From Ectocarpus siliculosus (taxonomy: Eukaryota; Sar; Phaeophyceae; Ectocarpales; Ectocarpaceae), in contig FN648910.1 in NCBI GenBank assembly GCA_000310025.1, positions 1,832-22,454 of the forward strand: DNA of 20,623 bases, in the 5' to 3' direction. Positions 3,046-20,623 of this stretch are shown here, piece by piece. A model generated the notes under the pieces. It saw nothing but the letters and a program-made list of their open reading frames with translations, searched no databases and was not told the DNA's origin. Positions within the stretch are counted from its first letter, which is position 1. Each line of letters starts with the position of its first letter. Both the position numbers and the translations under genes were made by a program.

Positions 3046-4547
3046 GAATGAACAGATAAATGACGCGGGCAAACGCAGGGGACAGCATCGAGTCGGGGGA
3101 CTCGACTGTAGCGTGTTGTGACCGCCTGTGTTTGATTTCTCGGTCTCTGTACCGCGTTGGTTATGACTGTTTTGGATCGGAATGCCTGCAAGCGAACTAG
3201 GGCCAGTCGCGGCTGCTTTAGGTGTGTATTGTACGGGCCACGGTCGTCTGGCATTCCCGGTAACGTGCGCGTTGTTGGCGCACCAAGGGAGTGCGTGGAA
3301 AACTGTCTAAGCCGGGTCGGCTCATTGTGGGTTCCCTAAATGTTGACAAAATGAGTTAAACATTCAGGTTGATCAAAACTATGAGATGAAAACAACGAAA
3401 GTTTTGCTGTACGTGAGCCCACAAACTGTGGCACAACTCTGACTGACTGCCGTTTGCGGGGCTCGTCGCTAATGTCGTCCCCAAGTCGTCCCAAGGCGGG
3501 CCGGTATCACCGTATGAGAAGAGTCGGAAAGCCCAGTTCGAAAAACGAACCTAGAAAGAGACGTTGGGGAACTATCAAACAACAATAGCCAGCCTCTACG
3601 TTGGCGTTGCGTTGCAGGCCACAGTCCCACAGTATATACGATAGAGACGATGGCAGAGATTTATCAACATATTTGAACTAAAACAGATACTTCGACGTAT
3701 GGCAAGTTCTCAGCGCACCTTCACAGACTTTCTTGACGGGATCGCAGACTTGTTCAGGGTCCTCGCAATTCCCTGTGACAAAAACACGCGCCCGGAGGGG
3801 GTAATCTACCCACGTACTGGGCGATCCTAAGCATATGTACATGGTATCTTACTACTCACTAAGTACTCGACGGTTAGTCTATGCTTTGGCGCGCGGGTAC
3901 TTGGCGCTACAGTACATTATCCCTGCGCAGTGGTTGTCGCCTGGCACGCGAGTTGTGTCACCGGCAATGTTTCAACTACTGTACCTCGCCAGCAGTACAC
4001 TGAACCAACGACTGGGGCGGGTCAACTCTCAAATCAAATAGGAAGGGTTTGTTCGTCGAAGCAGATAGAATAAACTGGTGTTTATTTTGTAACAGTCGAA
4101 TTAGAATTTGGCTTCATTTCTACCGGAAACCCAGGGTCACGGTGTTTGGAATTATTAGTCTATAGTTGGGGGTGTCATTCCGTGATCGAGTCCACGCAGG
4201 GGCTGTAGCAAAGTCGGGTAACGTGTGACAGCTACAGAGCGCGTGAAGCAACGGAAGGACAGCAGCAGCCGCCTAACGCAGTAGCGGCGGCAGTTTAGAA
4301 AAGGGCGGGACGGGACACGGCGCAAGCATTGGGGAAGCGACCAGCACGCGTCTCTCCATAAAAAGGTGTGTACTCGTGTCCAACATCCATCGTGTCGGCC
4401 GTGTTCCTATTCGCGTCCCGCTACTCTTGTGACCTCACCGCTGCGTGCATTTAGCACGAGGGGGGAGGGTGCAGTAAGATAAGCGGCGGCAAGCCACCGC
4501 AGTCTCGTTCGCCGCGCCGCTCAGATAGGTCCCTTCCCAAACATTGG

Positions 4548-4637
4548 ATGCGGTTCATCCCAACCGAGACGTACTCTCGCTGAAGAAAAAAATGCGGTTC
4601 ATCCCAACCGAGACGTACTCTCGCTGAAGAAAAAAAA
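4548..4637. repeat. 44-bp tandem duplication, two copies
   Basis: Copies start at 4548 and 4592. They are identical over the 38-nt body (ATGCGGTTCATCCC... to ...CTCGCTGAAG) and each ends in an A run of slightly different length. It looks like a recent local duplication. No function is apparent. Confidence 0.9.
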
Positions 4638-5087
4638 TTCAACGGCAAAAAGAAAGAGCGGGGCCTGTTGTTTGGTCGCACGCTGACTTGTCGCGGTTGC
4701 TGTACGTGCCACGATAGCAGCTATTGTACTGCACGGGGTGGAGGAACCCTGCGGCATCGGACATAACCAATCGACCCGCGGCAGTAGGGCATGATGCTGT
4801 CACGAGTATGCACATGAGGCAGGTGCCTTGTTTTCTGTTCCCCCGGCTTACTAGGGACTACTTGCCGGTACAATCTTGTCTGTGCCGCGCACAGAGGGGC
4901 ATATAGCTGAAGGAATCGACGATAATATGCTCACTCACGTAAGCAATCGTCTCCACGGATAGTATTGACAAGTCCCCACTGATGGTATCGACAAGTCTCA
5001 CGGCATACAAAGCGGCCGCATACGTAATCGGAAAGTGCATTCAACAGCATTCACGGGAACGGATAAAAGCAAAAACCACATGCATGC

Positions 5088-5221
5088 GAGAGAAAGACCC
5101 AAAGAAAAAGACTGAAAAACAAAGAAGACGAGAAAAAAAAACGAGACAGCGAACTACGTGCTGTATGCATAAGGAAAAAGAAGATGAGAAAAAAAAAAAA
5201 AAGGGGGGGGGGAGGTGAAAG
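5088..5221 (+). repeat. Purine-rich tract ending in A14 G10
   Basis: This stretch is strongly purine-biased on the plus strand and ends in 14 A (5189-5202) followed by 10 G (5203-5212) and AGGTGAAAG. It is simple sequence. It resembles a polypurine tract, but no LTR was identified after it. A Pol III B-box-like string, GGTTCGACCCC, begins at 5232, without an A box upstream. Confidence 0.7.
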
Positions 5222-5483
5222 TGACACGCGAGGTTCGACCCCGCGAGGAACGTCAGGTAACGGTCCATTCGGGTGTACTACGGTCTCGAGGGGCATCACG
5301 TCAAATTTACGCCCGATGTGACACAAACCTTCTATAAGAATACGTCACATCCATCGACGATTAAGCGACCGTTCCAAAAAACGCCCGGACAGCAATTGAT
5401 GCATGCCAAAAGCTCGTCAACCTGCCGTAGGATTGTCTATGCGGAAGTGATCTCAATGAAAAAAAAAAACACGGACACGCACC

Positions 5484-6275
5484 AGCACGGGACGCGCCAA
5501 TAGTGGAAGCACTCGTCCGTGCTGTTGGCGAGTGGAAGTTAACCGATCTCAACGCAACGAAACACGAAGTCATACATATATCAGCACGGGATGCGCCAAT
5601 GAGTGGAAGCACCCGTGCTGTTGGCGAGTAGAGTTAACCGAATTCAACCCAGCGGTAGAAAAATACCACAAATCATGCATCAGTACGGGACGCGCCAATG
5701 AGTGGAAGCACCCGTGCTGCATATGTGATGTCAGCCTCAGCACGGGACGCGCCAATGAGTGGAAGCACTCGTGCTGTTGGCGAGTAGAGTTAACCGATCT
5801 AAAAAAAAGAAAGAACAAAACGCCGTACACGTATCAGCACGGGACGCGCCAATGAGTGGACGCACCCGTGCTGTTGGCGAGTAGAATTAACCGATCTCCG
5901 CGCATCGAAAACGAAGTCATACACGTATCAGTACGGGACGCGCCAATGAGTGGAAGCACCCGCGCTGCGTACAAGTATCAGTACGGGTCGCGCCAATGAG
6001 TGGAAGCACCCGTGCTGCATATGTGTTGTCAGTTTCAGCGAGGGACGCGCCAATGAGTGGAAGCACCCGTGCTGTTGGCAAGTGGAGTTTCACCGTGTAT
6101 CCAACGCATCGAAGAAAAAAAAAAAAAAACACGTATCAGCACGGGACGCGCCAATGAGTGGAAGCACCCGCGCTGTTGGCAAGTGGAGTTCACCGTATCC
6201 AAAGCATCGAAGAAAAAAAAAAACACGTATCAGCACGGGACGCGCCAATGAGTGGAAGCACCCGTGCCGATGGCG
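5484..6275 (+). repeat. Ten-copy hairpin/CCAAT repeat array upstream of gag
   Basis: Ten copies of a roughly 37-bp core start at 5484, 5583, 5682, 5739, 5836, 5930, 5980, 6037, 6138 and 6232. The core begins AGCACGGG, continues with CGCGCCAATGAGTGGAAGCA and ends CCCGTGCT, so the ends form an 8-bp inverted repeat, with a mismatch or wobble in some copies. Copies are spaced either 94-101 or 50-57 bp. Most long-spaced copies add TTGGCG right after the core, complementary to the internal CGCCAA. Every copy contains a CCAAT motif. The array ends about 30 bp before a TATA-like box and about 390 bp before the gag-like frame, so a promoter/enhancer or element-terminus role is plausible but unproven. 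Confidence 0.92.
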
Positions 6276-6304
6276 AACCGGGACTCACCGAATCCAAGAA
6301 AATC

Positions 6305-6314
6305 TATATATAAA
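6305..6314 (+). promoter_or_regulatory. TATA-like box upstream of gag
   Basis: TATATATAAA lies directly after the CCAAT-containing repeat array and about 350 bp before the ATG of the gag-like frame at 6662. Position relative to the CCAAT motifs fits a Pol II promoter. It sits beside an A-rich run, so chance is possible. A short upstream ATG frame starts at 6342 and stops after 17 codons. Confidence 0.4.
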
Positions 6315-6661
6315 AAAAAAGAAACCATCGCTAGTGTTCCAATGAGAGAAATATTCGGGATTGGTCGACGTCCGGTGACCGTAGCGTCAGCACAATAATC
6401 ACTCCATTCAATCCACAGGCGTCGAGAACGAACTAACGCGAGCTCGCGATATAACAACGCGTCGTTCTGGGCCCGACGAAAACCCTCGTCAGATAGTTTC
6501 GCCCGAAGATAGGATTTGTAGACCATTCTAACTGCAGATCCAGGCGCGCGATCGACTACGCCCACGATGAAGAGGAAAAGAAGTGTTCCCGCAACGCCGC
6601 CCTGACGCTCGCCCGCCGCCTGCCGCCGGTTCGCTGCATATACGACTCTAACCGCGACCAG

Positions 6662-8043
6662 ATGCCGACACGGGCCTCCACGCGGAGCGGCAGGGCAGCG
6701 GCTGGGCAAGCAGGGCGAGGTCGGGCGGCGACACCTTCGACACCACGCACGAGGAGGTCTACCGCGCGATCGGTGGCGAGCTCGACGGCTCGCCCCTCGA
6801 CGCGCAGCGGATCACGTACTCCCGCGAGGCGTCGAGCGGTATCCTCCTCGCGAGCGCGAGGGACAGGCACCCGCGGCGACCCCCCCGCTGATGAGACTGA
6901 ACTCGCTTCTCTCCGCGGGCTGGTGGACGGCCTGAGGGAGGAGCTGCAGCGGAAGCGCGATGAGGCTGCCGGCGATCGCCAGCAGCTTCAAGCAACGATC
7001 GACGACCTGATCGCCACCCAAGCAGCAGGACCTGGCCTTCAGGGGGAGGTGCAACTGGTGGGCACAACCGCCCCACCATCGGCCTCTCGGGCCCCCGCTA
7101 CACCCAACGCCGAGGCGGCTAAGGCTACGGCAAAGGATAGAGCGCGCATGTGGGGGGACCTCCGCCGGGTAAAAGCGTGGCTCATCCTGGGGCGGCCTCC
7201 GGCAGTTTCAAAACTGTCGCAGATGGAGTGGCAATCCTTGCTTCGCAAAGGGGTCCTGGTGACAGAGAAAGTGGCGCGGCATCGCTCAACACGCTCTCAA
7301 ACTTCCGGGTCGAAGACTACCGTTCGGGATCTGACACGCCTAACGCCGAGGTTCTGTTGGAAGAGTCGCTCTCGATCCTCATCACGACCATATCGGCGTT
7401 GCTCAAAACAGGCATTACCGATTCTGAGAGTCTCCAGCGCGTGGGCATCCTCGAGGAGTCCCTCAACGTCGGCTTGGCGATGGTCACCGAGCACTGTCGT
7501 GAAAACCGCGGCGAGATGCGAAATCCCGCGAACAAACTCCGGTTCGCGGGATTCATCAACGACGATCTAATCCTGTTCGCATCGCGGTGGTTTGACGCCG
7601 CCATCAGTTTCAAGACAACGAACTCTGCGCCGCCGACTGTCATCGAGGATTTTCCGCCCGTGGTAACCATCGAGTGGAAGAGGATTACTGGCTTCATCGC
7701 CATGGGCGGGGTCGGCGCCGCCGCCTTCTACCAGCCTCAGATACGGGCAGGAGAACAGCTCCTATCGCCGTCCAAGCGAGCCCGGGGGACCACTTCCGGA
7801 AGATCGCGTGGTTACTGCTTCGCCTTCAACTCGTCGTCCGGTTGCCATGATCGTAACTGCCCATACATCCACGCCCAGAACCCTTCCCACGCTAGGCGCG
7901 AAGCGTCCGAAACTCCGGCAACCGGCGCGCGCGGCGTTGGCCACGGCAACGGGGGAGGGCGCGGAGGAGAGGCGCGCGCCGCTGGCGAGGGCGGCGCGAG
8001 ACCCAAGGCCGCTGACTTCTTCACCCACGGGAAAGACAAATAG
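6662..8043 (+). pseudogene. Gag-like protein with coiled coil and CCCH zinc finger, frameshifted
   Basis: This is the probable nucleic-acid-binding structural protein of a YR retroelement. The first part, from ATG 6662, is Arg/Ser/Thr-rich and basic, then has a predicted coiled coil of about 35 residues (6896-7015, rich in Leu/Glu/Gln/Arg). Near the G6 run at about 7150 the coding signal moves from frame 2 to frame 1. The second part (7150-8043) is a helical region ending in a CCCH finger at 7816-7872 (C-X8-C-X4-C-X3-H) and a Gly/Arg/Ala-rich tail, and stops at TAG 8041. The shift may be a mutation or a programmed frameshift. CCCH fingers of this kind accompany DIRS-like elements in algae and fungi; that comparison is from memory of the families, not a search. 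The YR relic follows directly in the same frame. Confidence 0.65.
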
Positions 8044-9118
8044 GGGTGCGGGCTCTCCCGCGTGGCGGGGGGGCCTACCTCGGATGGCAGCGCACCTGCG
8101 GCTAAATCGAACGGCTGCACGCCGGTCTGCACGAGGTTGGCTCCAGGGCTATCAGCAGGTTCAGGACCTGGGACAGGCAGGACGGGACTTTGTTACCGAC
8201 GTCTTGGCATGCAGCTCGTCGAGCACTCAGTTGCGTCTTCGTCTAGAAGGACTTACACGTCAGGCTTCAACTCTTGGTGCACGTTTCGCAGGCTGACGGA
8301 GAAGCCTAAGTTCCTAGGGCAACGTGCCGGGGACCTTCATGTGTGGGAGTTGATAGACTTCGTAGCCTGGTGTTTCGAGTCTGAGGGTAATCTAGCGAGT
8401 ACAATATCCGGAAAACTCACGGCTGTACAACATTTTCATAGGCTGGAAGCTTCTGTCGAGCTAGACTTGTCGTCTCCGATGTTGAAATGTGCGCTAAGCG
8501 GGATTGCGAGGAACCACGTGGCTATGGGGACGGTACGCCGTGTGCGCCTGCCTGTGTCTTGGCGTATGCTGCTGGACGGGGTGTGTCTGCCTGTGTCTTG
8601 GCGTATGCTGCTGGACGGGGAAAGCGCAAGCCAGAACTAGGGGGAAGGGGGCAGAGTGATGTGGCTGTGTCTGTGCTTGTCCTATCTCTTTTATCACACG
8701 GTCTGATGAGGTGTTCGCGAATGATGCGGGCAGGGTGCATGAGGCACACTGTCTTACGAGGGCGGACGTAGCATTGTTTGCTGGCGAGACGCAATTAGTC
8801 TTTAGTCACTATCGTAGAGCAGACCGTGTTGAAATGAGGTTTAGAGGGCACAAGGCCGATCAAGAGCAGAAAGGAAACATACGGGTTCGTACGCGAGACG
8901 AAGTCACCGGACCGCAGTCAGGTGTGAGAGCACGCGGCGGCGCGGTGGCTCTTGTGGTGGAGCTGTTATCGTGTCATGCGACGTTGCCTGACTCCGCACC
9001 GTTGGCTTCGTACCGTAGTGGAAGAGCAGTGAGAGTAGTGAGGTATACTGCTGCCCTCCGTGCAGTCAGAGAAGTGGTAGCGAAGTCGGGGCGTAACCCC
9101 CAGGAGTACGCACTTGCG
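8044..9118 (+). pseudogene. Tyrosine recombinase (DIRS/Crypton-like), broken and 3'-truncated
   Basis: This would be the strand-exchange enzyme of a YR mobile element. Frame 1 continues after TAG 8041 and from about 8206 reads as a core-binding domain, including a Ser-Ser-Ser-Arg-Arg-Thr-Tyr-Thr-Ser-Gly-Phe start typical of these proteins. The frame is then hit by an in-frame TAG at 8638, continues for about 16 codons, and moves to frame 2 near the T run at about 8690. Frame 2 carries the box I arginine (Arg-Ser-Asp-Glu-Val-Phe, Arg at 8699-8701) and the beta-hairpin lysine (Phe-Arg-Gly-His-Lys, Lys at 8852-8854). It ends Gln-Glu-Tyr-Ala-Leu-Ala just where the HxxR box should follow, so the second catalytic Arg, the His and the Tyr nucleophile are missing. 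There is also a 39-bp in-frame duplication at 8548-8620. It cannot be active. DIRS-like is favoured over Crypton because of the gag-like neighbour. Confidence 0.8.
8548..8620 (+). repeat. 39-bp in-frame tandem duplication inside the recombinase
   Basis: CTGCCTGTGTCTTGGCGTAT and the following 14 nt occur at 8548 and again at 8587, a period of 39 bp. This duplicates 13 codons (Leu-Pro-Val-Ser-Trp-Arg-Met-Leu-Leu-Asp-Gly plus two) without changing the frame. The two copies are identical over 34 nt, so the event is recent. Confidence 0.92.
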
Positions 9119-10320
9119 TGATATTTTCACGTCGAACCCAGGCCATTCGCCTACAGGGTTTGGTTTCAAACCGGGAGTCTCGTGGGTTCTCCCCGTGTGC
9201 GCGATACCTGCACCTTGTGTGCCGCGCTCCCGACCCCCACAAACGCTGTAAGGAGAGCAGGTCGAGCGTTGGTGGCGGTGGTGACTTTAGGTTGGACGTT
9301 CTTTCTCACGGACCATATGAGACTTCATGGAGCGCTCGATAGAGACCGAAAGACGGCCACAACCAAACTGTCACATTAAACTCAGACTGGTACCCGTGCG
9401 TGTCACGCTTCGTCCGGCTAATGTTTCCGCGGTTTTCGGTAGACCAACGTTGTGACTCGACCTTACTGTACGTACATGTTCAGCAGTGGTACCTCGCCCC
9501 GCTCACAAAGGGAGTCAACGAGTCGAGTGTCCGTTTTCATTGACAGGGGAAAATATCAACGTATCCTGTCGTAGGTACATTCGCACGTGTCTCGCAGGCA
9601 TGTAGGGCAGACAGCTTGTCGTGGCCAACGTCGAAGACAACATTGGAAAATGGTGAAGGCTTTACATACTAGCCCATGGTTTCTACCTCAACATTGTAGA
9701 ACATTCAAGGAACTGGCCAAGCTCGGAGCTTCCCGGCTGTGAAGGTCTTCTTAGTACGGCGGAGGTCGCCTTACTCATGACTGCTCAGCTTCGACCGAAA
9801 AGTACGCAACGGTGTTCGTTTCACCTTACAGCCACTCTCGTGACGTGCTCCTTCTCTCGGGCCAAGACTGCTTGCTGAGATGCATGGTCGAAGTAACGGC
9901 CCCAGCGTGGAATAGCGAGGCCAGTACCTAAGGCTCTAGCCCACTATATTACAATATAGAAATACTTTGCTGTGCAACGCAGTGTAACATTCGGTCAGGT
10001 GCGTGTTGCCCTCAACGCCTCACTTGTACATCACGGACTATTGGGGTACACGAGTGTTCTACCAGGATTCTGGTGTGTACGGGAAGTCTGTGTCGCGGTT
10101 GTGAGGGTATTTTGACCAACACCCCCGCCGCTAATCGGGAGCAACCCTACTGTGCCCAAGCGACGGAGCGCCCTGGTGGGAGCTTCCACCACACTCCGTC
10201 TTACCTGAACGGCAGCATTTGTTGGCATTGCAGGTGCCGGCGCAGTTTTGATTATTACCAAGGTAAACAGGAGTCGGATCCACGCATGCTCCATTCCAAT
10301 CTTCGCATATCTCTGCAGGA
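9110..10320 (-). repeat. Array unit(s) carrying cysteine-rich exon B
   Basis: Homology to the other units resumes at about 9110. The stretch 9110-9170 matches about 10390-10455 and more weakly 11225-11255. The block at 9588-9650 matches 1511-1563 and 11664-11725, and 9700-9940 matches 1620-1860. Apart from exon 10205-10312 it has frequent stops and is read as intron of the minus-strand gene. The start coincides with the truncated end of the recombinase relic. Confidence 0.75.
10205..10312 (-). CDS. Cysteine-rich module exon B (108 nt, phase 1-1)
   Basis: This is an internal exon of the unrecognised modular gene. The acceptor is TCCTGCAG and the donor is TTCAG|GTAAGACG. It encodes 36 residues with the same C-X6-C-X13-C-X3-C-X4-C-C pattern as exons A, C and D, including Asp-Trp-Asn-Gly before Cys2, Pro-Thr-Pro-Val-Tyr-Leu-Gly after it, and the Cys-Cys-Arg-Ser end. 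Residues between cysteines 2-3 and 4-5 differ from the other copies (Asn-Asn-Gln-Asn; Asn-Ala-Asn-Lys). The upstream intron from exon C is 737 nt. The downstream intron to exon A is about 7,980 nt and contains the YR element. A secreted, disulfide-rich product is inferred; the family is unknown. Confidence 0.78.
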
Positions 10321-11049
10321 TATGACAAAGCCGCCAAGACCGACGACGGAACAGTCACATGTGCAAGGAAGCGTTAGGGTCAGGGCACCAAAGCAACTTG
10401 CGTCTGCCTTTCACGTCGAGAATAGGCCATTCGTCTACAACGTTTGGTTTGAAACAGGGAGTCTCGTGGGGTCTCCCCGTGTGCACGCTACCTGTTCCTC
10501 GTGTGCCGCTCTCTCGACCCCCGCAAACGCCGGTGGGAGCGCAGGCTAGTCAGGTATTAGACGGTGGCCACGTTAGGTTCCACTTACCTTTCTCATGGAC
10601 CATGTTCGAGAAGTCGTGGAGCCCTCGATAGGGACCGAAGTGGGGTCATGACCAAATGGTCACATTTAACTCTTAGTCATAGCCGTGCGGACCACACTTC
10701 GTGCGGCTGATGTTTCCACGTTTTTGGGTGGAGGTTGATTTTGAGAAGCTACGACTCGAACCTACGTACGTAGCCAGCAGTGGTACCTCGCCCGGTTCAC
10801 AAAGGGAGCCGACGAGTCGGGAGAGTGGTCGCGCGTTTCGACAGTGGGGAAATTCAACATGCTAATCGACTATTCGGATAAATGTATTACGAGGATTTTG
10901 GTGTTTACTAAAACCTTAGTCGTGGTTCTGAGGGTGTTTTGCACCTCCCCTTCGAAGCTTGTCAGCGGCAACCCTACCATGTGCGAGCGCTTATGTCGTA
11001 TCACACCACGGAGCGCCCTGGTGGGGGCTTGCACCACGCTCGGTCTTAC
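10321..11049 (-). repeat. Array unit between exons C and B
   Basis: This is intronic sequence homologous to the corresponding part of the other units. The block at 10441-10475 matches 9155-9190 and 2341-2373, and 10560-10860 matches 9260-9545 and 2450-2760. This copy lacks the block found at 1511-1563 and 9588-9650, so it is a shorter unit. No other gene was seen. Confidence 0.7.
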
Positions 11050-11157
11050 GTGAACGGCAGCATTTGGCAGTACTGCAGGTGCCGAAGCAGTCCTCGCCAT
11101 CGCCAAGGTATTCCGCAGTGGGGTCCGCGCATACTCCATTCCAATCTTGACATACCT
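11050..11157 (-). CDS. Cysteine-rich module exon C (108 nt, phase 1-1)
   Basis: This exon is paralogous to exons A, B and D. The acceptor is TCCTGCAG and the donor is TTCAC|GTAAGACC. Here the last exon base is C rather than G, which changes the residue formed across the junction. The 36 residues keep all six cysteines at C-X6-C-X13-C-X3-C-X4-C-C and the Trp-Asn-Gly and Tyr-Leu-Gly motifs. The Pro-Thr-Pro-Val of the others is Pro-Thr-Ala-Glu here. Loops differ again (Asp-Gly-Glu-Asp; Ser-Thr-Ala-Lys). There are no stops or frameshifts. Introns are 916 nt to exon D and 737 nt to exon B. Function unknown; probably a small disulfide-stabilised module in a repeat protein. Confidence 0.78.
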
Positions 11158-12073
11158 CTGCAGGACATGACAAGCCGCCAAGACGGACGACGGAACAGCC
11201 ACAAAGCAAGCGTTAGGGTAAGGACACCAGAGCGCGACTTGCGTCAACCTCTCAAACAGGGAGTCTCGGGGAGTCTTCCTGTGTACACGGTGCCGCGGCT
11301 CCCGACTCCCGCAAGCGCTGTAGGGAGGATTGGAGGCGATGGCCACTTTAGGTTGTTTCAGATTTTCATGGACTGTATTCGAGAATTGCTGAGGCCAGGA
11401 CCTTAGAGACCGACATAGGGCCAGGACCAAATGGTCACATTCAACTCCCAGTCGTAGCCGTGCTGGTCACGCTTCGTTAGGCTGATGTTCCCACGGTTTT
11501 TCGGTGGACATTGATCTCGAAACGTTACGACTCGAACCTTCGTACGTGTACATGTGGTATACCTCACCCCGTTCACAGAGGAAGCCAACAAGTCGGCGGG
11601 CGAGTGTCCGTGTTCATCGATAGGGGAGAAATTGAACAAGCTCATGTCGCATGTACATGCACCGTGTCTCGTCTACGGCAAACAGCTGATTGTTGCCAAC
11701 GTCAAAGCCAACATTGGAGAACGGTGGAGGTTTCACACACTAGCTCATATTCTCCGTCAACACGTTAGAGCATTCCGCCCATTGGCCAAGCCCGAAGCTT
11801 CCCAGCTGTGGAAGCGTTGGCGGTGAGGCCGGAGGGGTCGTTAAGTGATCTTTGCACCGCTTGACTCGTCAACCACCGACTATTGAGATGAATCTGTACA
11901 TATGGGTGCTCTACTAGGATTCTGGTGTTTGCGTAAAACCTGTGTCGTGGAAGTGAGCGCGTTTTCCGTCCTCCCCCCGTCGCGTATCCGCTGAAAACGT
12001 ACTGCGTCCGAATGATTTCGTCGCGTCACCTGACGGAGCCCACTGGCGGGAGTGCTACCACGCACGGTCTTAC
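11158..12073 (-). repeat. Array unit between exons D and C
   Basis: This intronic copy contains both recurrent blocks (about 11249-11275 and 11664-11725), in the same order as the unit that starts at 9110. Open frames here are short and not shared between copies. No other gene was recognised. Confidence 0.7.
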
Positions 12074-12187
12074 CGGAACGACAGCAGTCACTGGCGTCGC
12101 AGTTGAGGAAGCAGCCGACATTATCGCCAAGGTACACAGGCGTCGGGTTCGCGCATGCTCCATTCCAATCTCCACATAGTTCGACAG
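12074..12187 (-). CDS. Cysteine-rich module exon D (108 or 114 nt, shifted acceptor)
   Basis: This is the first exon of the array visible in transcription order. The donor is TCCG|GTAAGACC. The acceptor used by its paralogs (CTGCAG) is CTGTCG here, so it lacks AG. Six bases upstream is TGTCAG, preceded by a good pyrimidine tract (CTTCCCCTCC). Using it gives a 114-nt exon that keeps phase 1 and adds two codons. The module keeps C-X6-C-X13-C-X3-C-X4-C-C, Asp-Trp-Asn-Gly and Pro-Thr-Pro-Val-Tyr-Leu-Gly. Loops are Asp-Asn-Val-Gly and Asp-Ala-Ser-Asp, and Gly-Thr before Cys4 is replaced by Leu-Asn. The gypsy element begins shortly beyond it, so the exon upstream of this one is not visible. Confidence 0.7.
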
Positions 12188-12332
12188 CTGACATTTTAAA
12201 GGAGGGGAAGCCGTGGGCGGTAGCTTGCTCCTAGAGATAGATGAAGGTAGGTTCTGTCGTTGACACGCTTGTCCACGATCACGATGAGATGAGAAAGTTG
12301 CTTGTTATTGCTGAGAGACGATCAGCAAGGGT

Positions 12333-12365
12333 CTGAGGTGAAGTGGGGATCCAACTTCACCTCAG
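12333..12365. repeat. Perfect 12-bp hairpin, 9-nt loop
   Basis: CTGAGGTGAAGT (12333-12344) and its exact reverse complement (12354-12365) flank GGGGATCCA. It is close to the end of array homology, within the presumed 3' LTR of the gypsy element. It could be an RNA structure near a transcript end; direction cannot be decided because the stem is symmetric. Confidence 0.85.
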
Positions 12366-12554
12366 GGGGTACGCAGACTAGACAAATCCTATGAGGATAG
12401 GTGCATGAAGGGTATACCTCCTGGGACCGACCCACATCCTATCAACAATAAGATGTACCCTATTCAGGCTAGCAGCCACACTCCTTAACACTAGCCCACC
12501 CTGAATATCATATATGCAGATTCTATACTCAAATCAATGCTCAAATCCTAAAAG

Positions 12555-13498: not shown

Positions 13499-13669
13499 GG
13501 TCAGAGGCGAACATACCGACGAAACTTGGGAACTCTTTGTCCAAGTGTTCAGAGGCAAACAACACCGACGAAACTTGGGGAACTCTTTTTCCAAGTGTTC
13601 AGAGGCAAACAACACCGACGAAACTTGGGGAACTCTTTTTCCAAGTGTTCAGAGGCAAACAACACCGAG
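13499..13669. repeat. 50-bp tandem repeat, about 3.5 copies
   Basis: CCAAGTGTTCAGAGGCAAAC recurs at 13541, 13591 and 13641 with a 50-bp period. An additional diverged copy (48 bp) precedes at about 13501, and the last copy is partial. It lies 90-260 bp downstream of the gypsy polyprotein stop (minus sense). Tandem repeats in 3' regions of LTR elements are common and copy number often varies between insertions. Confidence 0.92.
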
Positions 13670-13696
13670 AAAACAAACACAAAACAAAAAAAAGAA

Positions 13697-13760: not shown

Positions 13761-16700
13761 CTAGGAAGAGATATTGGGAACAGCCGACGGTAAGAAGTCA
13801 GTAATGGGAGGAGTGCGATCCCGGGCGTCGCCCAAAGGGCGCGAGCGATGTTTTTCTAAACACCACGATCCACAGACGGCGTCCAAGGCGGTGGAGTAGA
13901 GGTGCGCCGGCAGAGGGAGAACGCTGGGGCCCGGGTCATCCAGAAATCGAACGGTGTACAAGCCGTCCTGATGAGCACCAATACGTCCTGTCCACCATAA
14001 CCCGTCGCGGGCCTTGTACCACAGCCGCGCTCCCACTGGAAGGGGCGAAATGCTGAAGCGACGGAGCCAAGTCGCGTGAAGCACAAGGTCAGCCCCAGGA
14101 GGCAAATAACGTTCGCCGCGATTCCGGGCTAGCTCCCGTTGTGCCGCGCGTGTCCGAGCCACTCGATACGTGCGGTTACCCTGCTTGCTTTGGCAGACCT
14201 CTCGAGACCAGTACAATAGGATGTGTCGACGGAATTGATCGAGATCGGACTCCCGTTCCCAAGAAGGAGTAGTCAGGCCTAGCCAATGCGTCTGGTACAG
14301 GACGGCGAGAACGCCGCTACGGCCCCGCACCAATTGGTGTCCCGAAATGTAGTCGACCTCGAGGCGCCCAACAGGCACCGACACATCATCTGCGGTGACG
14401 TGAAACGGTGGACATTTGTCGCCGAAAGAGTGCAAGACATGACGCGAAAGCTCAGCGGGTAGAGATTGAGGCAGGTCGTCCGTCTCGTATGGATTGCGAC
14501 AGGGCTTGCAACGAAGGACAGATACCCGACATCGAGCAGCTGGGCCGGAAAGATCCGAAGGCAGGTCCAGGTAGAGGAGTTTGCGCGCCAACGGGCTTCC
14601 ATCTGGGGTGGCGTCGGCCGAAGCGGGACCCACCGCAAGAACTTTGTAAGGCCCCGTCCAGGAAAGCGCGAATTTGGCCTTGAGCACCTGTTGATCCGTG
14701 TCCTTCCGCACACCCTGTCGAATTGTAGCAGCCGTGTTGTAGACCCAAGCCCACCCGCCAACAGTAAATTGCGGGAGCTTGTGGATGGCGTCCAGCAGGG
14801 ATGAATTACTGCGTTCGACTCGCGAAATCTTCAGGGCGTTGTACTCACGGACCAGGTCGTAGGCCCGGCGCTGGCGATCGACAGCCAAGTTGCAGTACTC
14901 GAGTTGGTCACGGGCTAAGCTTTGATGACCACCGACCGTTGGATGATCGAAGACCGAAAGCGGAAGCCGCGGAATGCGTCCGATATGGATCTCGTTCGGC
15001 GCCAATCCAGTCGACTGGTTCACGGAATTGTTGTAGGCAAATTCAACGTGCGGGAGATGTATGTCCCAATCGTTTTGCTGGTCGTTGACGACTACCGCAA
15101 GCATCTGAGCCATCGTGTGATTGACGCGTTCCGTGCCGCCGTTGGTTTGCGGGTGGTAGGAGCTGGTGGTGACTTTCTTGATTTTCATCATCTCATAGAT
15201 CGCCATGGAGAGCTTCGAGCAAAATTGCAGTCCGTTGTCCGACAATAACGTAGTCGGACATCCCCACTTGGTCATGTACTGGTTGACGAAGATGTGAGCC
15301 GTCCCTTTCGCCGTAAATTCCGCCGCTGTAACCGCGAACATGTCGGCTCTCCGGCTGAAACGGTCTGTGAACAATAAAATGTAGGAGTTGCCCTTGGCAG
15401 TCACGGGCAGGGGTCCGAAGAAGTCGACGCCGACGACCGTACCAGGCCCCTGTGGCAATGGCATAGCGATGACGGGCCACCGAGCGGTTTGACGCGAAGT
15501 CTTGCGAGCTTGACACACCAAACACGCGCGAAGCCACCAGCGTACGGATCGATCCAGACCAATCCACCAGTAGAAACGCTCAAGCAGACGTTGTGTACGA
15601 TGAACATCAAGATGGAAGGACGCGGCGGTATGGCAGGCATGAAGGACCCACGGACGCATCAACATGGGCACGTTGACACGGGGCACACCAGTATCCGGTA
15701 GACGAGTGGCCCTGCCGCCAGAGCGCCCGATCGGCGATGGCGCCGGTTTATGTACGAGGAGGGTGACGTTATCATCGGTCGTGTGCAGCCTGGTTTTCGC
15801 CGCCAACGCAAGGATATCGTCTAACCGAGGGGAGCGGAGCGGGGCACTAAGGGTGAGCAAGTCAGAAGGGGGTGGGGAGGGAGAGCCACGAGACAGAAAA
15901 CGCATAGCCACCACGCATTCCCTCTCCCGCTGTTGTTCCCTAGCCCAGTCCACAGTGCCGAAGCTCTGAACGCAAGCTCGCAAATGTGAGGGGTCCAAGT
16001 CAGTTGGCTCCAACCCAGAGTCAAGCGATCCCACGGAAGAGGCTGTAGAACGAGGAGCCTCAACGACTGGTGAAGTTGCAGACAGCGGTGTCACCCTAGG
16101 AGGAGGCATCGGGAGGGGCGACGTCCCAGGCGAAACCTGGATAGAGGGCAAAACCGAGGATGCAGCGCGCGCCGATGCCGGCGAAGGCACCTCTGGCGCA
16201 GAGGCAGTCGACGAAAACGCCGACGTTGGCGTCGCAGATGACGGCAGGGGACGCGTGCCGGTCTGGATGGTCTTGTTTGTCGAGCGGGACCTGCTAGGAC
16301 GACGGGCAGTGGACGATGCCCGAGGGACGATGGTAGCCCGCGGCTGGCGTCCGAAATAGGTGGGACCGGTGACGGTGCCTCCAGAAGCAGCGGTGGTCTT
16401 GGCCCGAGTTCGTGAAGAAATGAGCGGTCCCCGCTCCGGAAGCGAAGACAGGACGTGCACATATCTATTCGCCAAAGACGCGGCCGGAGACATTCCGCGG
16501 GACGTAGCCGGAGCCAAACAGGAAACAGGCACCGGAGACGCGGAAACATGTGAGACCACGAAGACTCCCGAAGACCTCCGAGAATCTTGATAATCAATCG
16601 GTGAGTCCGATCGAACATCCAGCAGGCGCGGGTGATGACGGCGAAAATCCCCAAAATCGGATGGCTGTAGCGCTGGGGGTGAAAAGACGCCTGCGGAGCA

Positions 16701-19700
16701 GGGAGGGCGGAGCCCACCCAAACCGACCTCCGGCGTAGACGACGAGTGATAGTTGAGTCCACAAGCCCGAATGAGGAAGACACCAGCGTGATCGACACCA
16801 TCAATGCAATCGGGGCCGGTTGTGTCCGTGTCTTGTGCTGGTAAAGGCAGCCGCGAAAGAAAATCCGCGTTGCCGTTTGCCGAACCTTTCCGATATTTCA
16901 GGGTGTAGGTGAAGTTGGACAGGAATTCGAGCCATCGTTGTACCCTGGCGTTGTGTTCTCCAACCTTGCCAATGCTCTCTAAGGTTTTGTGATCTGAATA
17001 GATGATGAACTTGGTTGACCATAAATAGCCCCGAAGACGCTTAATGGCCCAAACAATGCCACCAGCTTCCAGATCCAGAAGAGTCCAGTTCCGCTCCGCC
17101 GGAAGAGTAGCGCGGCTGATGTACACAATGGGTCTTACCGAGCCATCGAGTTGTTCTTGTTCCAGGGAGGCTCCAAAGCCGTCAATGCACGTGTCGGAGC
17201 ACAAACGGAGAGGACGGCTGTTGTCCTCGACCGCAGCCCAATCCGGGAAGACCAAAATCGGGGGACGCGCGAGTTCGCTCAACAACGTTTTGACAACCTT
17301 GACCATGCCCGGGGTGTACTTGAAGGGGACGCCTTGTTTGAGAAGAGAGTTGAGAGGCCGCACCTTGGTGGCGAGATTCTGAAGGAATTTCCGGTAGTAG
17401 CTGAGGCCACCGAGGAGGCTCCTAAGCTGCTTAACATTCGTCGGCGGCGGCATGTGCGTGAGCGCCCGAACCTTGACGCCATCAGGGCTAACCCCAGCCG
17501 GGGAGATGGTGTGACCGAGGAAATTGGCGTGGGTGGCGCCGACACGAGCCTTCCCTGGAGACAGCTTGAGGTTGTACTGGCGCAGCCGTTTGAAAAACTC
17601 GATCATGTTGAGCACGTGTCCCAGAGGTTCCTCATCGAAACAGATAACATCATCCAGATAGGCAAGCACACGCTCCAGACCGTGCACCACTCTGCTGATG
17701 ACCTTGACGAACCAAGACGGGCTGGCGTTGGCTCCTTGCGGCATCCGAAGCCATTCGAACAACTGCGTGGGAGTGCCAAAGGCGGTGAGCGGGACAGTGT
17801 CTTCGTCACAAACGATCTGGTGGAAGGCCGAATTGAGATCGAAGATGGAGAACACTTTCCCGGTGTAGAGAGAATCCAAGATACCGTCCACCCGAGGGAG
17901 AGGTTGTCCATCCAAGTCCACCAGGGCGTTGAGTCGTTTGTAGTTGACGGTGATGCGAACCGATCCGTCCTTCTTGGGGATGACGACCAGGGGAGAAGCC
18001 CAGGGAGAAGTGGAATGCTGAATGAGCCCTGCCGCCAAATACTGATCCAAAACGGCATCCACTTTCTTCTGCATTAACGGGTTAATACGATACGGGCGCG
18101 ATGCGACGGGCTTCGTCCCGGCGGGGACAGAAAGAGCGAATGGCATGACGGTGCAAGAACCAAAATCGGTTTTCGAAGTAGAGAACACGTCGGAATACGC
18201 AACAAGGGCGTCGGCCAAACGATCAATAGCCTCCGGTGTCCATCCCGGGTTGTGAAGATCGAAAGCGATGTCGTGCATATGTGCGGGCAGCCTAGCCCAC
18301 AATCGCAGAAAACTGGAACGCTGGGCCTCGGAGAAGCGGTCAAGCAGTTCTTGTGGGGGCGGCTTCGGAGGAGGCGGGGCGGAGGCTGGGTCCGGAGAGC
18401 GGCGAGTCCCGGACTTGGGGCCAACGGCGTTGACCCGATGCGGTGATGTAGAGGATGGGGGGGCGGTGGGAGTCGAAGATGGAGCCGCCTTCAGAGTTTC
18501 TACCGGTACTCGTAATAGCGGTGCAGCAGACACGCCAAGAACGTCGCCCGGCTCCAATTCGGCACAACCTGCAAGGGGAATACGCTGAAGACCATTGGAA
18601 ACAAATGCATCGGGGGACGAAAGTGCACCCACTTCAGGTCGGAACGATACGAGATATTCGCCGATCAGCGCAGGCATGCCCGAAGAACGGACGAGGTCCA
18701 CCTCAACAAGGGCCGGCTCCGGCCCCAAGGAAATGCCCGAGCTCCCTGCATATTTGAGGTGAAACGAAGAGGCAGGAGCGTCGTCGTGCGTAGCGTAAAC
18801 ACACGCGCCAGCGGTGAAACGTGGAGAGAGCGTGAGCTCGCCCATAACCCGGCCGTTTGGTCCAGGGTGGGGGAGGGTGGTGAACACTCGAGAGTTGAAC
18901 CGCATCCAGCTATCGCGACCCAGAAGCACGGCGTGCCCCATGGCGGCATCTGGAACAACGCAGGCCCAGACCGCCAACGAAGCGGTAGCTCGAGCTCCAT
19001 GAAGAAAATTAACGGTGAGACGAACTGACCGAGTGGTCACAAGGGCGGGTCCATCACCAAACCCACCCCAACGACGAGAGGGAGAAACACGAACGCTGCC
19101 AGCTGTCAAGGCTCCAGCAGCTATCATGGCGGTGACCACGGAGTCGGACACAAAAGACGCAGGAGATCCAGAGTCCAGCAGCGCCACTCGCGCGAGTTGA
19201 GAAGTGGCTGTAGGTCCTCCATGCAGCAGAACCCGGGTGGTGTAAGAGTCCGAGTCCAACAGGAGCGTGCCGCCGACCAGATCGGGCCCGTGTTCCAGAA
19301 GAGGAGGTTGGTCTGCACAAGCGGAGGTCGAGGCCACCAGATGAACACCAGGAGCATGGTCCCCCGGAGCGTCCAAATGGAGACAGGCTGGGTCTTCACC
19401 CCGGTCCTCCCGTGACGACGAACCTGCCACGGTAGCAACCTCGTGGATGCGTCTACGGCCATGTGGAGGAGGCTGCAAAATGGGAGGTGCGGGAGAAGTG
19501 GAGGCGGGGAGAGCTTCGCCAGACAGGGGATGATCACGCAAAAGGCGCCGAACTTCCATCAAAGCTTTTCCCAACAAGTTTTTACCACTAGACGCCCACT
19601 TGGATGAAACGCTAGCCTCCGGAAAGCATGCAGACATGCCGATACCCCAAACGCGATCGAAGGGGCTGGCTTCCGCAAGGAGGCGGGTACCCGTCTCCAG

Positions 19701-20623
19701 TAAATGTTGTTTCATGTCGTGGTTTTGAGCGAATTTGGCATACGACCCCGTAAGCACGATCTCTTCTCGACGACGCTCCCATTCAGCATAGTCAAAAGGA
19801 CGTACGTTACGACCCAAGTACTTGTGTGTCTTAGGATCTGGTGCAGCCATGATTTTGTCATACGACGTCATATCCCCAAACAACTTCGCTTTTTCAGACA
19901 TCATAAATTGCTCACCACATGAATAACGTACCCCCAGTACGTCAAAAACCGAGGGAGTCCATTGCGAGAACACAGACGGAGGTTTCCAGAAGAGGAGGAC
20001 GTCATCCGAAGCGTACTCGCATTTGTCATCAAACGGCGGAGCCGGTGCAGGGCGCAGAGGCAAAGAGCGGGCACCAGGCACGGGCGGGGGTGGGCCAAGC
20101 GGACGGGTCCTCATCTCCGACGGGGAGGACCCAGAAAGCGAGGGAGGAGCGGGCGAAGTCGCTCCGGTCCATGATCCGGAGGGCGGCCTACGGGCGGCGG
20201 CTCCGGCGAGGTCAATGTTAGCAGAGGCCATTCGGCTATTAGAGACCTGTTCGTTAGGAGAAGTCTTTCCTGCGGCAGACGGATATGTGTGAATGGACGC
20301 AGGGCGCTCTGGACTACTCCCCCGTGACAAAGGAGCCGAACCTTCCACAGAACGGTGGGCACTACCATCCGATCCCGATGGCAGTGGTGCAGTCAGCACG
20401 TTGTGGGCAGCAGAGGAAGACGCATTCGTATCAGGTGCTGCCACACGGGGGCAGCGGACGGTCGAAGACAACGAAAGCTGCGAGAGAGAAGGAGAATCGA
20501 CGGGGTCCCCGACGAGTGTAGAAGAAGGCTCGTGTGCTATCCGAGAAGAGGCCCGGCTGACAACACCAGGAGAGTCTTGGCGAACAGTAGTAGACGAGGT
20601 TCTTGTTCCTTCTGTAACCCGAG
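13761..20623 (-). CDS. pol: Ty3/gypsy chromovirus-like polyprotein with N-terminal NADAR domain (5' partial)
   Basis: This is the replication and integration polyprotein of an LTR retrotransposon. The frame is open from the right window edge to the stop at 13761 (over 2,280 codons, no frameshift), so the start is outside the window; the first in-frame ATG visible is at 20231. Residues below are counted from the codon at 20471. NADAR lies at ~160-312. Retropepsin is at ~400-545 (Asp-Ser-Gly at 433-435, Leu-Leu-Gly-Arg-Asp near 516-520). RT is at ~780-1010 with Tyr-Leu-Asp-Asp at 938-941. RNase H is at ~1085-1205 (D1093, E1135, D1160). A Ser/Pro-rich linker spans ~1211-1600. Integrase has H1614, H1620, C1650, C1653 and D1683, D1745, E1781 (D-X35-E), then Gly-Pro-Tyr at 1940-1942. 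A chromodomain is at ~2034-2092 and a Tudor-like barrel at ~2144-2195. No CCHC knuckle is visible, so Gag is probably further upstream. All catalytic residues are present, which suggests a young, possibly active copy. Confidence 0.95.
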   Translation of the reverse strand, partial: RVTEGTRTSSTTVRQDSPGVVSRASSRIAHEPSSTLVGDPVDSPSLSQLSLSSTVRCPRVAAPDTNASSSAAHNVLTAPLPSGSDGSAHRSVEGSAPLSRGSSPERPASIHTYPSAAGKTSPNEQVSNSRMASANIDLAGAAARRPPSGSWTGATSPAPPSLSGSSPSEMRTRPLGPPPPVPGARSLPLRPAPAPPFDDKCEYASDDVLLFWKPPSVFSQWTPSVFDVLGVRYSCGEQFMMSEKAKLFGDMTSYDKIMAAPDPKTHKYLGRNVRPFDYAEWERRREEIVLTGSYAKFAQNHDMKQHLLETGTRLLAEASPFDRVWGIGMSACFPEASVSSKWASSGKNLLGKALMEVRRLLRDHPLSGEALPASTSPAPPILQPPPHGRRRIHEVATVAGSSSREDRGEDPACLHLDAPGDHAPGVHLVASTSACADQPPLLEHGPDLVGGTLLLDSDSYTTRVLLHGGPTATSQLARVALLDSGSPASFVSDSVVTAMIAAGALTAGSVRVSPSRRWGGFGDGPALVTTRSVRLTVNFLHGARATASLAVWACVVPDAAMGHAVLLGRDSWMRFNSRVFTTLPHPGPNGRVMGELTLSPRFTAGACVYATHDDAPASSFHLKYAGSSGISLGPEPALVEVDLVRSSGMPALIGEYLVSFRPEVGALSSPDAFVSNGLQRIPLAGCAELEPGDVLGVSAAPLLRVPVETLKAAPSSTPTAPPSSTSPHRVNAVGPKSGTRRSPDPASAPPPPKPPPQELLDRFSEAQRSSFLRLWARLPAHMHDIAFDLHNPGWTPEAIDRLADALVAYSDVFSTSKTDFGSCTVMPFALSVPAGTKPVASRPYRINPLMQKKVDAVLDQYLAAGLIQHSTSPWASPLVVIPKKDGSVRITVNYKRLNALVDLDGQPLPRVDGILDSLYTGKVFSIFDLNSAFHQIVCDEDTVPLTAFGTPTQLFEWLRMPQGANASPSWFVKVISRVVHGLERVLAYLDDVICFDEEPLGHVLNMIEFFKRLRQYNLKLSPGKARVGATHANFLGHTISPAGVSPDGVKVRALTHMPPPTNVKQLRSLLGGLSYYRKFLQNLATKVRPLNSLLKQGVPFKYTPGMVKVVKTLLSELARPPILVFPDWAAVEDNSRPLRLCSDTCIDGFGASLEQEQLDGSVRPIVYISRATLPAERNWTLLDLEAGGIVWAIKRLRGYLWSTKFIIYSDHKTLESIGKVGEHNARVQRWLEFLSNFTYTLKYRKGSANGNADFLSRLPLPAQDTDTTGPDCIDGVDHAGVFLIRACGLNYHSSSTPEVGLGGLRPPCSAGVFSPPALQPSDFGDFRRHHPRLLDVRSDSPIDYQDSRRSSGVFVVSHVSASPVPVSCLAPATSRGMSPAASLANRYVHVLSSLPERGPLISSRTRAKTTAASGGTVTGPTYFGRQPRATIVPRASSTARRPSRSRSTNKTIQTGTRPLPSSATPTSAFSSTASAPEVPSPASARAASSVLPSIQVSPGTSPLPMPPPRVTPLSATSPVVEAPRSTASSVGSLDSGLEPTDLDPSHLRACVQSFGTVDWAREQQRERECVVAMRFLSRGSPSPPPSDLLTLSAPLRSPRLDDILALAAKTRLHTTDDNVTLLVHKPAPSPIGRSGGRATRLPDTGVPRVNVPMLMRPWVLHACHTAASFHLDVHRTQRLLERFYWWIGLDRSVRWWLRACLVCQARKTSRQTARWPVIAMPLPQGPGTVVGVDFFGPLPVTAKGNSYILLFTDRFSRRADMFAVTAAEFTAKGTAHIFVNQYMTKWGCPTTLLSDNGLQFCSKLSMAIYEMMKIKKVTTSSYHPQTNGGTERVNHTMAQMLAVVVNDQQNDWDIHLPHVEFAYNNSVNQSTGLAPNEIHIGRIPRLPLSVFDHPTVGGHQSLARDQLEYCNLAVDRQRRAYDLVREYNALKISRVERSNSSLLDAIHKLPQFTVGGWAWVYNTAATIRQGVRKDTDQQVLKAKFALSWTGPYKVLAVGPASADATPDGSPLARKLLYLDLPSDLSGPAARCRVSVLRCKPCRNPYETDDLPQSLPAELSRHVLHSFGDKCPPFHVTADDVSVPVGRLEVDYISGHQLVRGRSGVLAVLYQTHWLGLTTPSWERESDLDQFRRHILLYWSREVCQSKQGNRTYRVARTRAAQRELARNRGERYLPPGADLVLHATWLRRFSISPLPVGARLWYKARDGLWWTGRIGAHQDGLYTVRFLDDPGPSVLPLPAHLYSTALDAVCGSWCLEKHRSRPLGDARDRTPPITDFLPSAVPNISS
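13887..14042 (-). other. Tudor-like domain at the extreme C-terminus
   Basis: Residues ~2144-2195 read as a Tudor/SH3-like barrel: Val-Gly-Ala-Arg-Leu-Trp-Tyr, Trp-Trp-Thr-Gly-Arg-Ile, Leu-Tyr-Thr-Val-Arg-Phe-Leu-Asp-Asp, then a last strand. It follows the chromodomain after about 50 residues, which would give the integrase two putative chromatin readers in tandem. Recognised by pattern only. Confidence 0.5.
14196..14372 (-). other. Chromodomain at the integrase C-terminus
   Basis: Residues ~2034-2092 have the chromodomain layout: Val-Asp-Tyr-Ile then a short hairpin, Leu-Ala-Val-Leu-Tyr in place of the usual Leu-Val-Lys-Trp, Ser-Trp-Glu-Arg-Glu-Ser-Asp-Leu, and a C-terminal helix ending Leu-Leu-Tyr-Trp. 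In chromoviruses this domain follows integrase and directs insertion to particular histone marks. The aromatic cage cannot be confirmed by eye. Confidence 0.7.
19536..19994 (-). other. NADAR domain within the retrotransposon polyprotein
   Basis: Residues ~160-312 match the NADAR (YbiA-like) family in signature and length. In order: Phe-Ser-Gln-Trp; Gly-Val-Arg-Tyr followed by Glu-Gln-Phe-Met-Met and Lys-Ala-Lys-Leu-Phe-Gly-Asp; Ala-Ala-Pro-Asp-Pro-Lys; Leu-Gly-Arg with Phe-Asp three residues later; Lys-Phe-Ala-Gln-Asn; Glu-Ala-Ser-Pro-Phe-Asp-Arg-Val-Trp-Gly-Ile-Gly; and Asn-Leu-Leu-Gly-Lys-Ala-Leu-Met. Known members are N-glycosidases: E. coli YbiA acts on riboflavin-pathway intermediates, and other NADAR proteins remove ADP-ribose from guanine bases. 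The domain is in frame with protease and RT and looks intact. Its role here is unknown. Counteracting a host ADP-ribosylation defence, or handling NAD-derived modifications on the element's nucleic acid, is inference only. Confidence 0.9.

Follow-up and report, generated by a model that had tools for sequence, protein, structure and literature searches.

The window analysed here, a stretch of 20,623 nucleotides of the brown alga Ectocarpus siliculosus (contig FN648910.1), contains a Ty3/gypsy long terminal repeat (LTR) retrotransposon whose Pol polyprotein starts with a linker followed by a NADAR domain of the YbiA type. The core of this finding, a NADAR-Gypsy fusion in Ectocarpus, was published in 2025 (PMC12477816, Genome Biol): the passages of that paper on NADAR describe a YbiA-type domain conserved in all families of one Ectocarpus Gypsy lineage, suggest its horizontal acquisition from bacteria, and propose processing of the RNA intermediate as its role. 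It is the only relevant paper among openly licensed PubMed Central papers that combine NADAR with Gypsy. Added here are the position of NADAR in Pol after a UGA-C stop, its probable origin from a host gene, a sister lineage lacking it, a parallel in what appear to be DIRS-like elements, and the selection acting upon it.

The NADAR domain in the Pol frame

The Pol open reading frame (ORF; 13761-20621, minus strand) runs for 2286 codons without a stop and is open on its 5' side because the contig (C344, 22,454 bases) ends with the window. The Pfam NADAR profile PF08719 matches residues 211-362 at E 1.1e-44 over profile positions 2-163 of 163, its full length, and its score of 153 bits lies above the cut-off (35.1); the single unbroken frame joining NADAR to a Ty3/gypsy Pol, as reported by the first-pass annotation of the window, is thus borne out. 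The domain also exceeds the cut-off of TIGR02464, the riboflavin-intermediate N-glycosidase profile (143.4 against 73.7 bits), and its best match among solved structures is 8bau (phmmer E 2.7e-17, 66.5 bits; profile E 3.5e-37), the NADAR protein of Phytophthora nicotianae that is treated in PMC11543638.

After NADAR the frame carries a retropepsin-like motif, RVT_1, RNase H, Integrase_H2C2, rve and a chromodomain-like tail, and the Ty3/gypsy order of protease, reverse transcriptase (RT), RNase H and integrase is therefore present, the protease by motif only. The protease region has no Pfam match; the DSGS at residue 483, between NADAR and RT, is taken here to be the retropepsin motif. The rve match reaches 30.4 bits against a cut-off of 32.6, and the PF00385 match in the tail is weak (14.1 bits against a cut-off of 25.1). 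A Tudor-like segment, also found in other families of the elements, was otherwise recognized by eye, its phmmer match to 4ii1 (ZGPAT) being weak (E 0.37) and ranked below two antibody chains; the part of ZGPAT that is matched is presumably its Tudor domain. In NADAR the window copy shares 94% identity with P0002, which comes from Ectocarpus sp. CCAP 1310/34; this match and the host NADAR gene described below point to an Ectocarpus or a near relative as host.

Spread of NADAR among related elements

When the genome (189 Mb, 492 contigs) was searched for NADAR, 150 of 230 candidates were scored and all 150 exceeded the cut-off, so that the call is not due to chance. Among the RT relatives of the element in the same genome, of which 150 of 458 candidates were scored, 125 have NADAR upstream of RT; 120 of these come from a listed NADAR match on the same strand, at a spacing of 0.6-2.6 kb (mostly 1.45-1.6 kb), and five more were recognized by eye from the host-protein search (C11, C63, C486, C54 and C24). 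A rearrangement confined to one copy is rejected by this distribution. By RT identity, the 120 listed cases comprise 33 of 39 relatives at 90% or above, 22 of 27 at 65-89%, 65 of 82 at 50-64% and neither of the two at 45%; the domain is carried even by families that differ by about 40% in RT. Among 11 sequences, some of them near-copies, distances in NADAR are correlated with those in RT (Mantel r 0.90, 0 of 5000 shuffles), as is expected if both parts were inherited together.

The two 45% relatives, L033 and L034, have protease-like and RT parts, and L033 has a CCHC Gag, a stop and then Pol; no NADAR match was found in either within the 4.7-4.8 kb fetched. They represent a sister lineage without NADAR, and the domain was most likely gained once by the lineage that carries it. 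NADAR matches at C3:3913787 and C489:435177 lie in ORFs of 10,887 and 6,365 codons, far exceeding the element length, of which masked bases or tandem structure may be the cause.

Active site and selection

The residues contacting ADP-ribose in the P. nicotianae NADAR are set out in section 12 of PMC11543638, according to which mutation of E43, K50 or E125 cost activity or antitoxin function, and a Glu (E125) instead of Asp or His is the mark of the YbiA subfamily. Equivalents of E43, K50, K75, R79, W89, R93, E125, D130 and W133 are all present in the NADAR of the window, and 28 of 30 genome copies show no change at any of these nine positions; the 30 are a non-random sample made up of the 8 best-scoring NADAR matches, the window copy, and others that were mostly chosen for long ORFs. 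Equivalents of E43 and K50 occur in all 30, and the E125 equivalent is Glu in each of the 29 copies that cover the position, which places them in the YbiA subfamily. All three are kept together in 29 of 29 readable copies, the decayed L029 included; in L040, which is a truncated fragment, the first six of the nine residues are present. Five proteins (P0002-P0006) likewise keep all nine (5/5). The active site is apparently intact, and a hydrolase is predicted.

In L029 (C89:154200-164199) the middle of NADAR is scrambled, apparently by a frameshift, with the E43, K50 and E125 equivalents kept and other contacts lost; its RT and integrase remain near those of their family, making it a natural NADAR-damaged copy.

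Selection was estimated as the ratio of nonsynonymous to synonymous substitution rates (dN/dS) among 11 copies of the window's own family (family A), the window included. NADAR gives 0.15 (0.07-0.35) versus 0.95 (0.38-3.07) for the preceding linker (residues 60-200), the copies having been chosen for long ORFs and the pairs sharing history, with rough intervals. The enzymes give 0.15 (protease), 0.30 (RT), 0.30 (RNase H) and 0.14 (integrase), and the chromodomain-like and Tudor-like segments 0.09 and 0.23; for the linker after NADAR the ratio is 0.32 (0.13-0.82), for the linker before RT 0.22 (0-0.88), and for the segment between RNase H and integrase 0.54 (0.31-1.06). NADAR is constrained like the Pol enzymes, the contrast being clear only with respect to the first linker. 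In family B (10 pairs) the NADAR ratio is 0.22 (0.06-0.62).

The Gag-Pol junction

The ends of the element were found in the C36 copy, in which 212 bases are 100% identical between the 5' and 3' ends and represent the LTR, partly fetched. At 21 loci no LTR pairs were found, as the stretches taken did not reach from one end of the element to the other; the pair came to light once the C36 copy was extended. The window copy holds only the 3' LTR end, at which its similarity to three other copies also stops.

The Gag frame of the C36 copy measures 1514 codons from stop to stop. A single UGA separates it from Pol, which continues in that frame for 2376 codons and has no methionine within its first 220 residues. 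The N-terminal Pol linker of relatives starts directly past the Gag UGA. All 20 junctions shown, which belong to four families, have UGA as the stop and C as the next base, and an SQD[AV]R[VI] motif past the stop is common to them. The comparison covers 20 of 30 loci; of the other ten, L020 shares the UGA-C but has a nearer UGA as well, L009 and L040 fall short of the junction, and the remaining seven (L001, L002, L005, L006, L008, L017 and L028) are taken up below. A CCHC knuckle was seen by eye in the Gag of P0002, a member of the same family, and in the sister L033; the Gag of the window element lies beyond the contig end.

The NADAR-containing Pol is probably made by readthrough of the UGA-C stop codon as a Gag-Pol fusion. 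The UGA-C junctions and the shared motif place NADAR in Pol, with the enzymes. The further suggestion of the first-pass annotation, that the domain might be a structural part of a divergent Gag, has to be given up, since Gag has its own frame, which lies upstream and stops at the UGA.

Origin of the element NADAR

Cellular NADARs of brown algae are represented by P0012 of Ectocarpus sp. 13 and P0016 of Pylaiella littoralis, both with a cysteine-rich N-terminus of their own. The genome under study has a host NADAR gene on C24:2125206-2127066 (minus strand), with a cysteine/histidine-rich N-terminus and a relative in Pylaiella; because its match to the Ectocarpus sp. 13 protein is split into four pieces, with identities of 83, 90 and 95% for three, the gene is inferred to have three introns.

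Bacteria contributed 21 of 80 loci, viruses 14 of 80 and a list of 120 proteins 37 to a first quick tree of 94 rows, which also included element, host and other rows; 13 rows were then removed as long-branched, distant or redundant, P0007 and P0008 among them. In the resulting 81-row tree the elements and P0012/P0016 form one group (98/96), separate from the bacteria, viral contigs and fungi included in that tree, and in a tree of 56 rows the element-host group has support of 97/90. Within the group the host genes fall inside the elements in the 81-row tree (83/41) and beside them in the 56-row tree (elements 91/39), so that the transfer may have gone in either direction. Since the closest cellular relative in the sample is an intron-bearing brown-algal NADAR gene, capture from the host gene, by way of a spliced transcript, is probably the origin and is favoured over direct bacterial transfer.

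The two removed proteins are unusual in themselves. P0007 (2912 aa) combines NADAR with a DprA-like domain (PF02481) and resembles by eye a crAss-like phage polymerase protein, with a DGSDFDADK motif. In P0008 (2816 aa) NADAR lies at the N-terminus and FHA is present as well; parts similar to RT and to a tyrosine recombinase were seen by eye. The protein is possibly another tyrosine-recombinase (YR) retroelement, and had no BLAST match to the RT of the P0009 type described next.

NADAR in a second class of retroelements

In protein P0009 NADAR is followed by an RT/RNase H that shows no BLAST similarity to Gypsy RT-RNase H; in its relative P0135 such similarity is weak (E 0.003). A search with the P0009 RT, scoring only the 8000 length-limited candidates that share most words, gave 10 proteins including P0009 (34-100% identity), 7 of them with NADAR upstream of RT. 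More distant RT relatives include P0139, in which RT is combined with a Dam methylase, and P0140, with RT and a tyrosine-recombinase motif seen by eye. We take these two combinations to be DIRS-like marks, and they point to the P0009-type family being DIRS-like elements.

Five of the seven P0009-type NADARs, those placed in the 56-row tree, form a clade of their own (98/95), and the approximately unbiased (AU) test does not reject their union with the algal NADARs (p 0.16 and 0.45). All nine active-site residues are found in P0134 and P0136; K75 and R93 are changed in P0009, P0130 and P0132, and the active site is more altered in P0137 and P0138. In P0132, upstream of NADAR and RT, residues 33-130 show a weak match to an OTU cysteine protease (18.4 bits, below cut-off). 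Together with the published Tx1 LINEs, these proteins suggest that NADAR is a repeated companion of retroelements. Among openly licensed PubMed Central papers nothing relevant was found for NADAR combined with DIRS except PMC12477816, whose NADAR passages name no elements other than Gypsy and Tx1.

Proposed role and alternative explanations

The best explanation, to which we would give about an even chance, is that the element NADAR is a packaged ADP-ribosyl-base hydrolase that acts on element RNA or cDNA, is supplied through readthrough Pol and was captured from the host. The architecture, the conservation, dN/dS, the active-site residues and the nearest relatives in the sample are observed; the readthrough, the packaging, the substrate, the benefit and the direction of transfer are inferred. 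As part of the Gag-Pol readthrough product, NADAR would reach the virus-like particle at the stoichiometry of an enzyme, accompanied by protease, RT and integrase. There the domain would act on the element RNA or cDNA, most likely cleaving ADP-ribose off guanine or hydrolysing an N-glycosidic ADP-ribose adduct of similar kind; alternatively it would remove an ADP-ribose-derived host signal. Removal of the adduct or signal would let reverse transcription proceed.

A number of observations weigh against this explanation in one or another of its parts. With respect to the substrate, neither a DarT-like writer nor Tpt1/KptA gave a match in the genome, although intron-split genes may be missed by these searches, and a NADAR that is not part of a DarT operon may act on a different substrate. 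In the active site, F replaces Y at the position equivalent to Y84, the D86 position varies, and K is found at R93 in both host proteins, which keep the other eight residues. With respect to selection, the linkers after NADAR and before RT are also low in dN/dS, the manner in which copies were chosen must be kept in mind, and family C (3 pairs) gives a NADAR ratio of 1.8 (0.29-2.89) from very few changes. At the junction, the seven further loci named above have other stops nearer NADAR, and no RNA structure after the UGA is clearly above shuffled sequence (5 copies, 3 windows each, z -1.70 to 0.85), so that the case for readthrough is one of frame and context. As to origin, the AU test does not reject a single clade of elements (p 0.37), and the phage protein P0007 together with P0008 fell within the element-host group in the 94-row tree. 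As to distribution, no NADAR was found upstream in 25 of the 150 RT relatives; six of these were inspected, the two of the sister lineage and four others (L037, L038, L039 and L041) in which the expected stretch has no polyprotein match and which are thus truncated or rearranged. Of the ten P0009-type proteins, P0131 and P0133, both short, and P0135, with 526 residues before RT, lack NADAR.

Other roles for the domain can be considered. It could act on free NAD- or ADP-ribose-derived host-defence signals, or on riboflavin-pathway intermediates, rather than on element nucleic acid. We consider this rather unlikely; it agrees with the score above the TIGR02464 cut-off, with weak PARP-domain fragments in the genome (4, best E 4.5e-6, two with an internal stop), and with the proposal, in the portion of PMC9503650 dealing with viral NADARs, that soluble ADP-ribose derivatives are the targets of many of them. 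However, the same portion supports macromolecular conjugates as targets for the polyprotein NADARs of eukaryotic RNA viruses, and a domain located in Pol, and thus probably in the particle, would be better suited to a nucleic-acid substrate than to a diffusible one. It is quite improbable that NADAR is a non-enzymatic reader of ADP-ribose or RNA serving packaging or targeting in the manner of a chromodomain: other parts of Pol do resemble readers (chromodomain-like and Tudor-like, both weak), and the DIRS-like P0137 and P0138 have changed active-site residues, but a mere reader is hard to reconcile with the E43, K50 and E125 equivalents being kept in every readable copy.

The history of the domain also admits alternatives. 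NADAR would have come directly from bacteria according to the 2025 study, in which case the host gene would be unrelated or later derived from the element. The best named prokaryote matches, 49-56% identical in the first six rows and mostly of myxobacteria, are in keeping with such a transfer, and a union of elements with myxobacteria is disfavoured by the AU test and not rejected (p 0.094). The element-host groupings of both trees speak against it, as do the separate cysteine-rich N-terminus of P0012 and P0016 and the three inferred introns of the host gene, and a bacterial source is considered unlikely. Finally, a functionless passenger joined by recent rearrangement, an outcome that the first-pass annotation had envisaged for a domain missing from other family members and stripped of catalytic residues, is highly improbable and is rejected on the low dN/dS of family A. 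Decayed copies such as L029 do exist, and the family C ratio is high, but NADAR is found in 125 of 150 scored relatives across families. The catalytic residues being kept in the copies examined, the envisaged outcome is not observed, and neither is the other one named in the first-pass annotation, the lack of a significant NADAR profile match.

To our knowledge, no retroelement with an ADP-ribose-processing enzyme has been described besides the cases reported in 2025. It is conceivable, though doubtful, that unrelated retroelement classes (algal Ty3/gypsy, DIRS-like elements and oyster LINEs) separately recruited active NADARs as packaged ADP-ribose erasers. If so, host nucleic-acid ADP-ribosylation would restrict retrotransposons in protists and algae, and the algal element would counter this restriction with a NADAR gene of the host itself. 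Nucleic-acid ADP-ribosylation has so far been studied mainly in bacterial toxin-antitoxin systems, and an active NADAR eraser needed for transposition would be direct evidence that it acts on eukaryotic mobile elements. The ORFs, the mappable active site and the host paralogue make the role testable with purified protein.

Features of the window

The features of the element are collected in Table 1. Elsewhere in the window, overlapping ORFs lie at 6662-8640 (plus strand). Judged by eye, one carries a CCCH-like motif towards its end, and the one after it is similar to the N-terminal region of a tyrosine recombinase; this may be the remnant of an Ngaro/DIRS element. Three of these ORFs have no Pfam match. 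Several degenerate direct-repeat families, with units of 150-166 bases and shorter, occupy 2073-12197, and a tandem-like repeat cluster lies at 5459-6249.

Table 1. Features of the Ty3/gypsy element, in window positions
Feature	Position	Strand	Basis
N-terminal Pol linker, cut by contig end	19992..20621	-	Translation; junctions of relatives
NADAR domain, YbiA subfamily, Pol residues 211-362	19536..19991	-	PF08719, TIGR02464, nine active-site residues
Retropepsin-like region, outer limits approximate; DSGS motif 19152-19175	18822..19286	-	Motif from translation
Reverse transcriptase RVT_1; YLDD 17649-17660	17505..17981	-	Pfam
RNase H (RT_RNaseH)	16911..17225	-	Pfam
Integrase zinc-binding H2C2	15498..15671	-	Pfam
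Integrase core rve	15150..15449	-	Pfam, slightly below cut-off
Chromodomain-like segment	14205..14360	-	PF00385, 13-14 bits, below cut-off 25.1
Tudor-like segment, weak	13917..14054	-	By eye and one weak phmmer match
Three 50-bp tandem repeats, 3' of Pol, within the element	13528..13677	+	Repeat search; position by C36 copy
End of 3' LTR, last ~208 bases	12195..12402	-	96.2% match to 5' LTR piece of C36 copy

Comparison with known systems

The closest published relative by description is Gypsy-12_Ec32 (PMC12477816), which like the window element has NADAR in the N-terminal part of Pol and an Ectocarpus host, the two being likened by the account given in that paper. Gypsy-12_Ec32 is given a putative C-terminal chromodomain, and in the window a PF00385 match below cut-off is found at this place. 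The words "readthrough" and "stop codon" were not found in the text of the paper, and its NADAR passages contain no active-site test, selection, host cellular NADAR or DIRS-like NADAR elements.

The chemistry is best represented by the YbiA-type NADAR of P. nicotianae (8bau), which, according to the sections of PMC11543638 devoted to it, hydrolyses ADP-ribosyl-guanine. It shares with the window NADAR the subfamily mark E125 and the nine contact residues, and differs in having been studied as an orphan protein outside any retroelement polyprotein; the match between the two is modest. The NADAR of DarTG1 (DarT1-NADAR) belongs to the same superfamily and has ADP-ribosyl-guanine hydrolase chemistry in the same sections, but is of the BC4488 subfamily with Asp where the window NADAR has Glu. 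Membership of the window NADAR in this DarT1-associated antitoxin class is rejected because of that Glu and the lack of a DarT match in the genome.

With respect to its setting in a polyprotein, the window NADAR resembles those described in the viral part of PMC9503650, which are likewise embedded together with a polymerase, although in viruses with an RNA-dependent RNA polymerase rather than in LTR elements. Among retroelements, the Tx1 LINEs of Crassostrea gigas treated in the NADAR passages of PMC12477816 also have NADAR in an element protein, but these are non-LTR elements in which the NADAR-like protein, termed divergent there, is that of ORF1.

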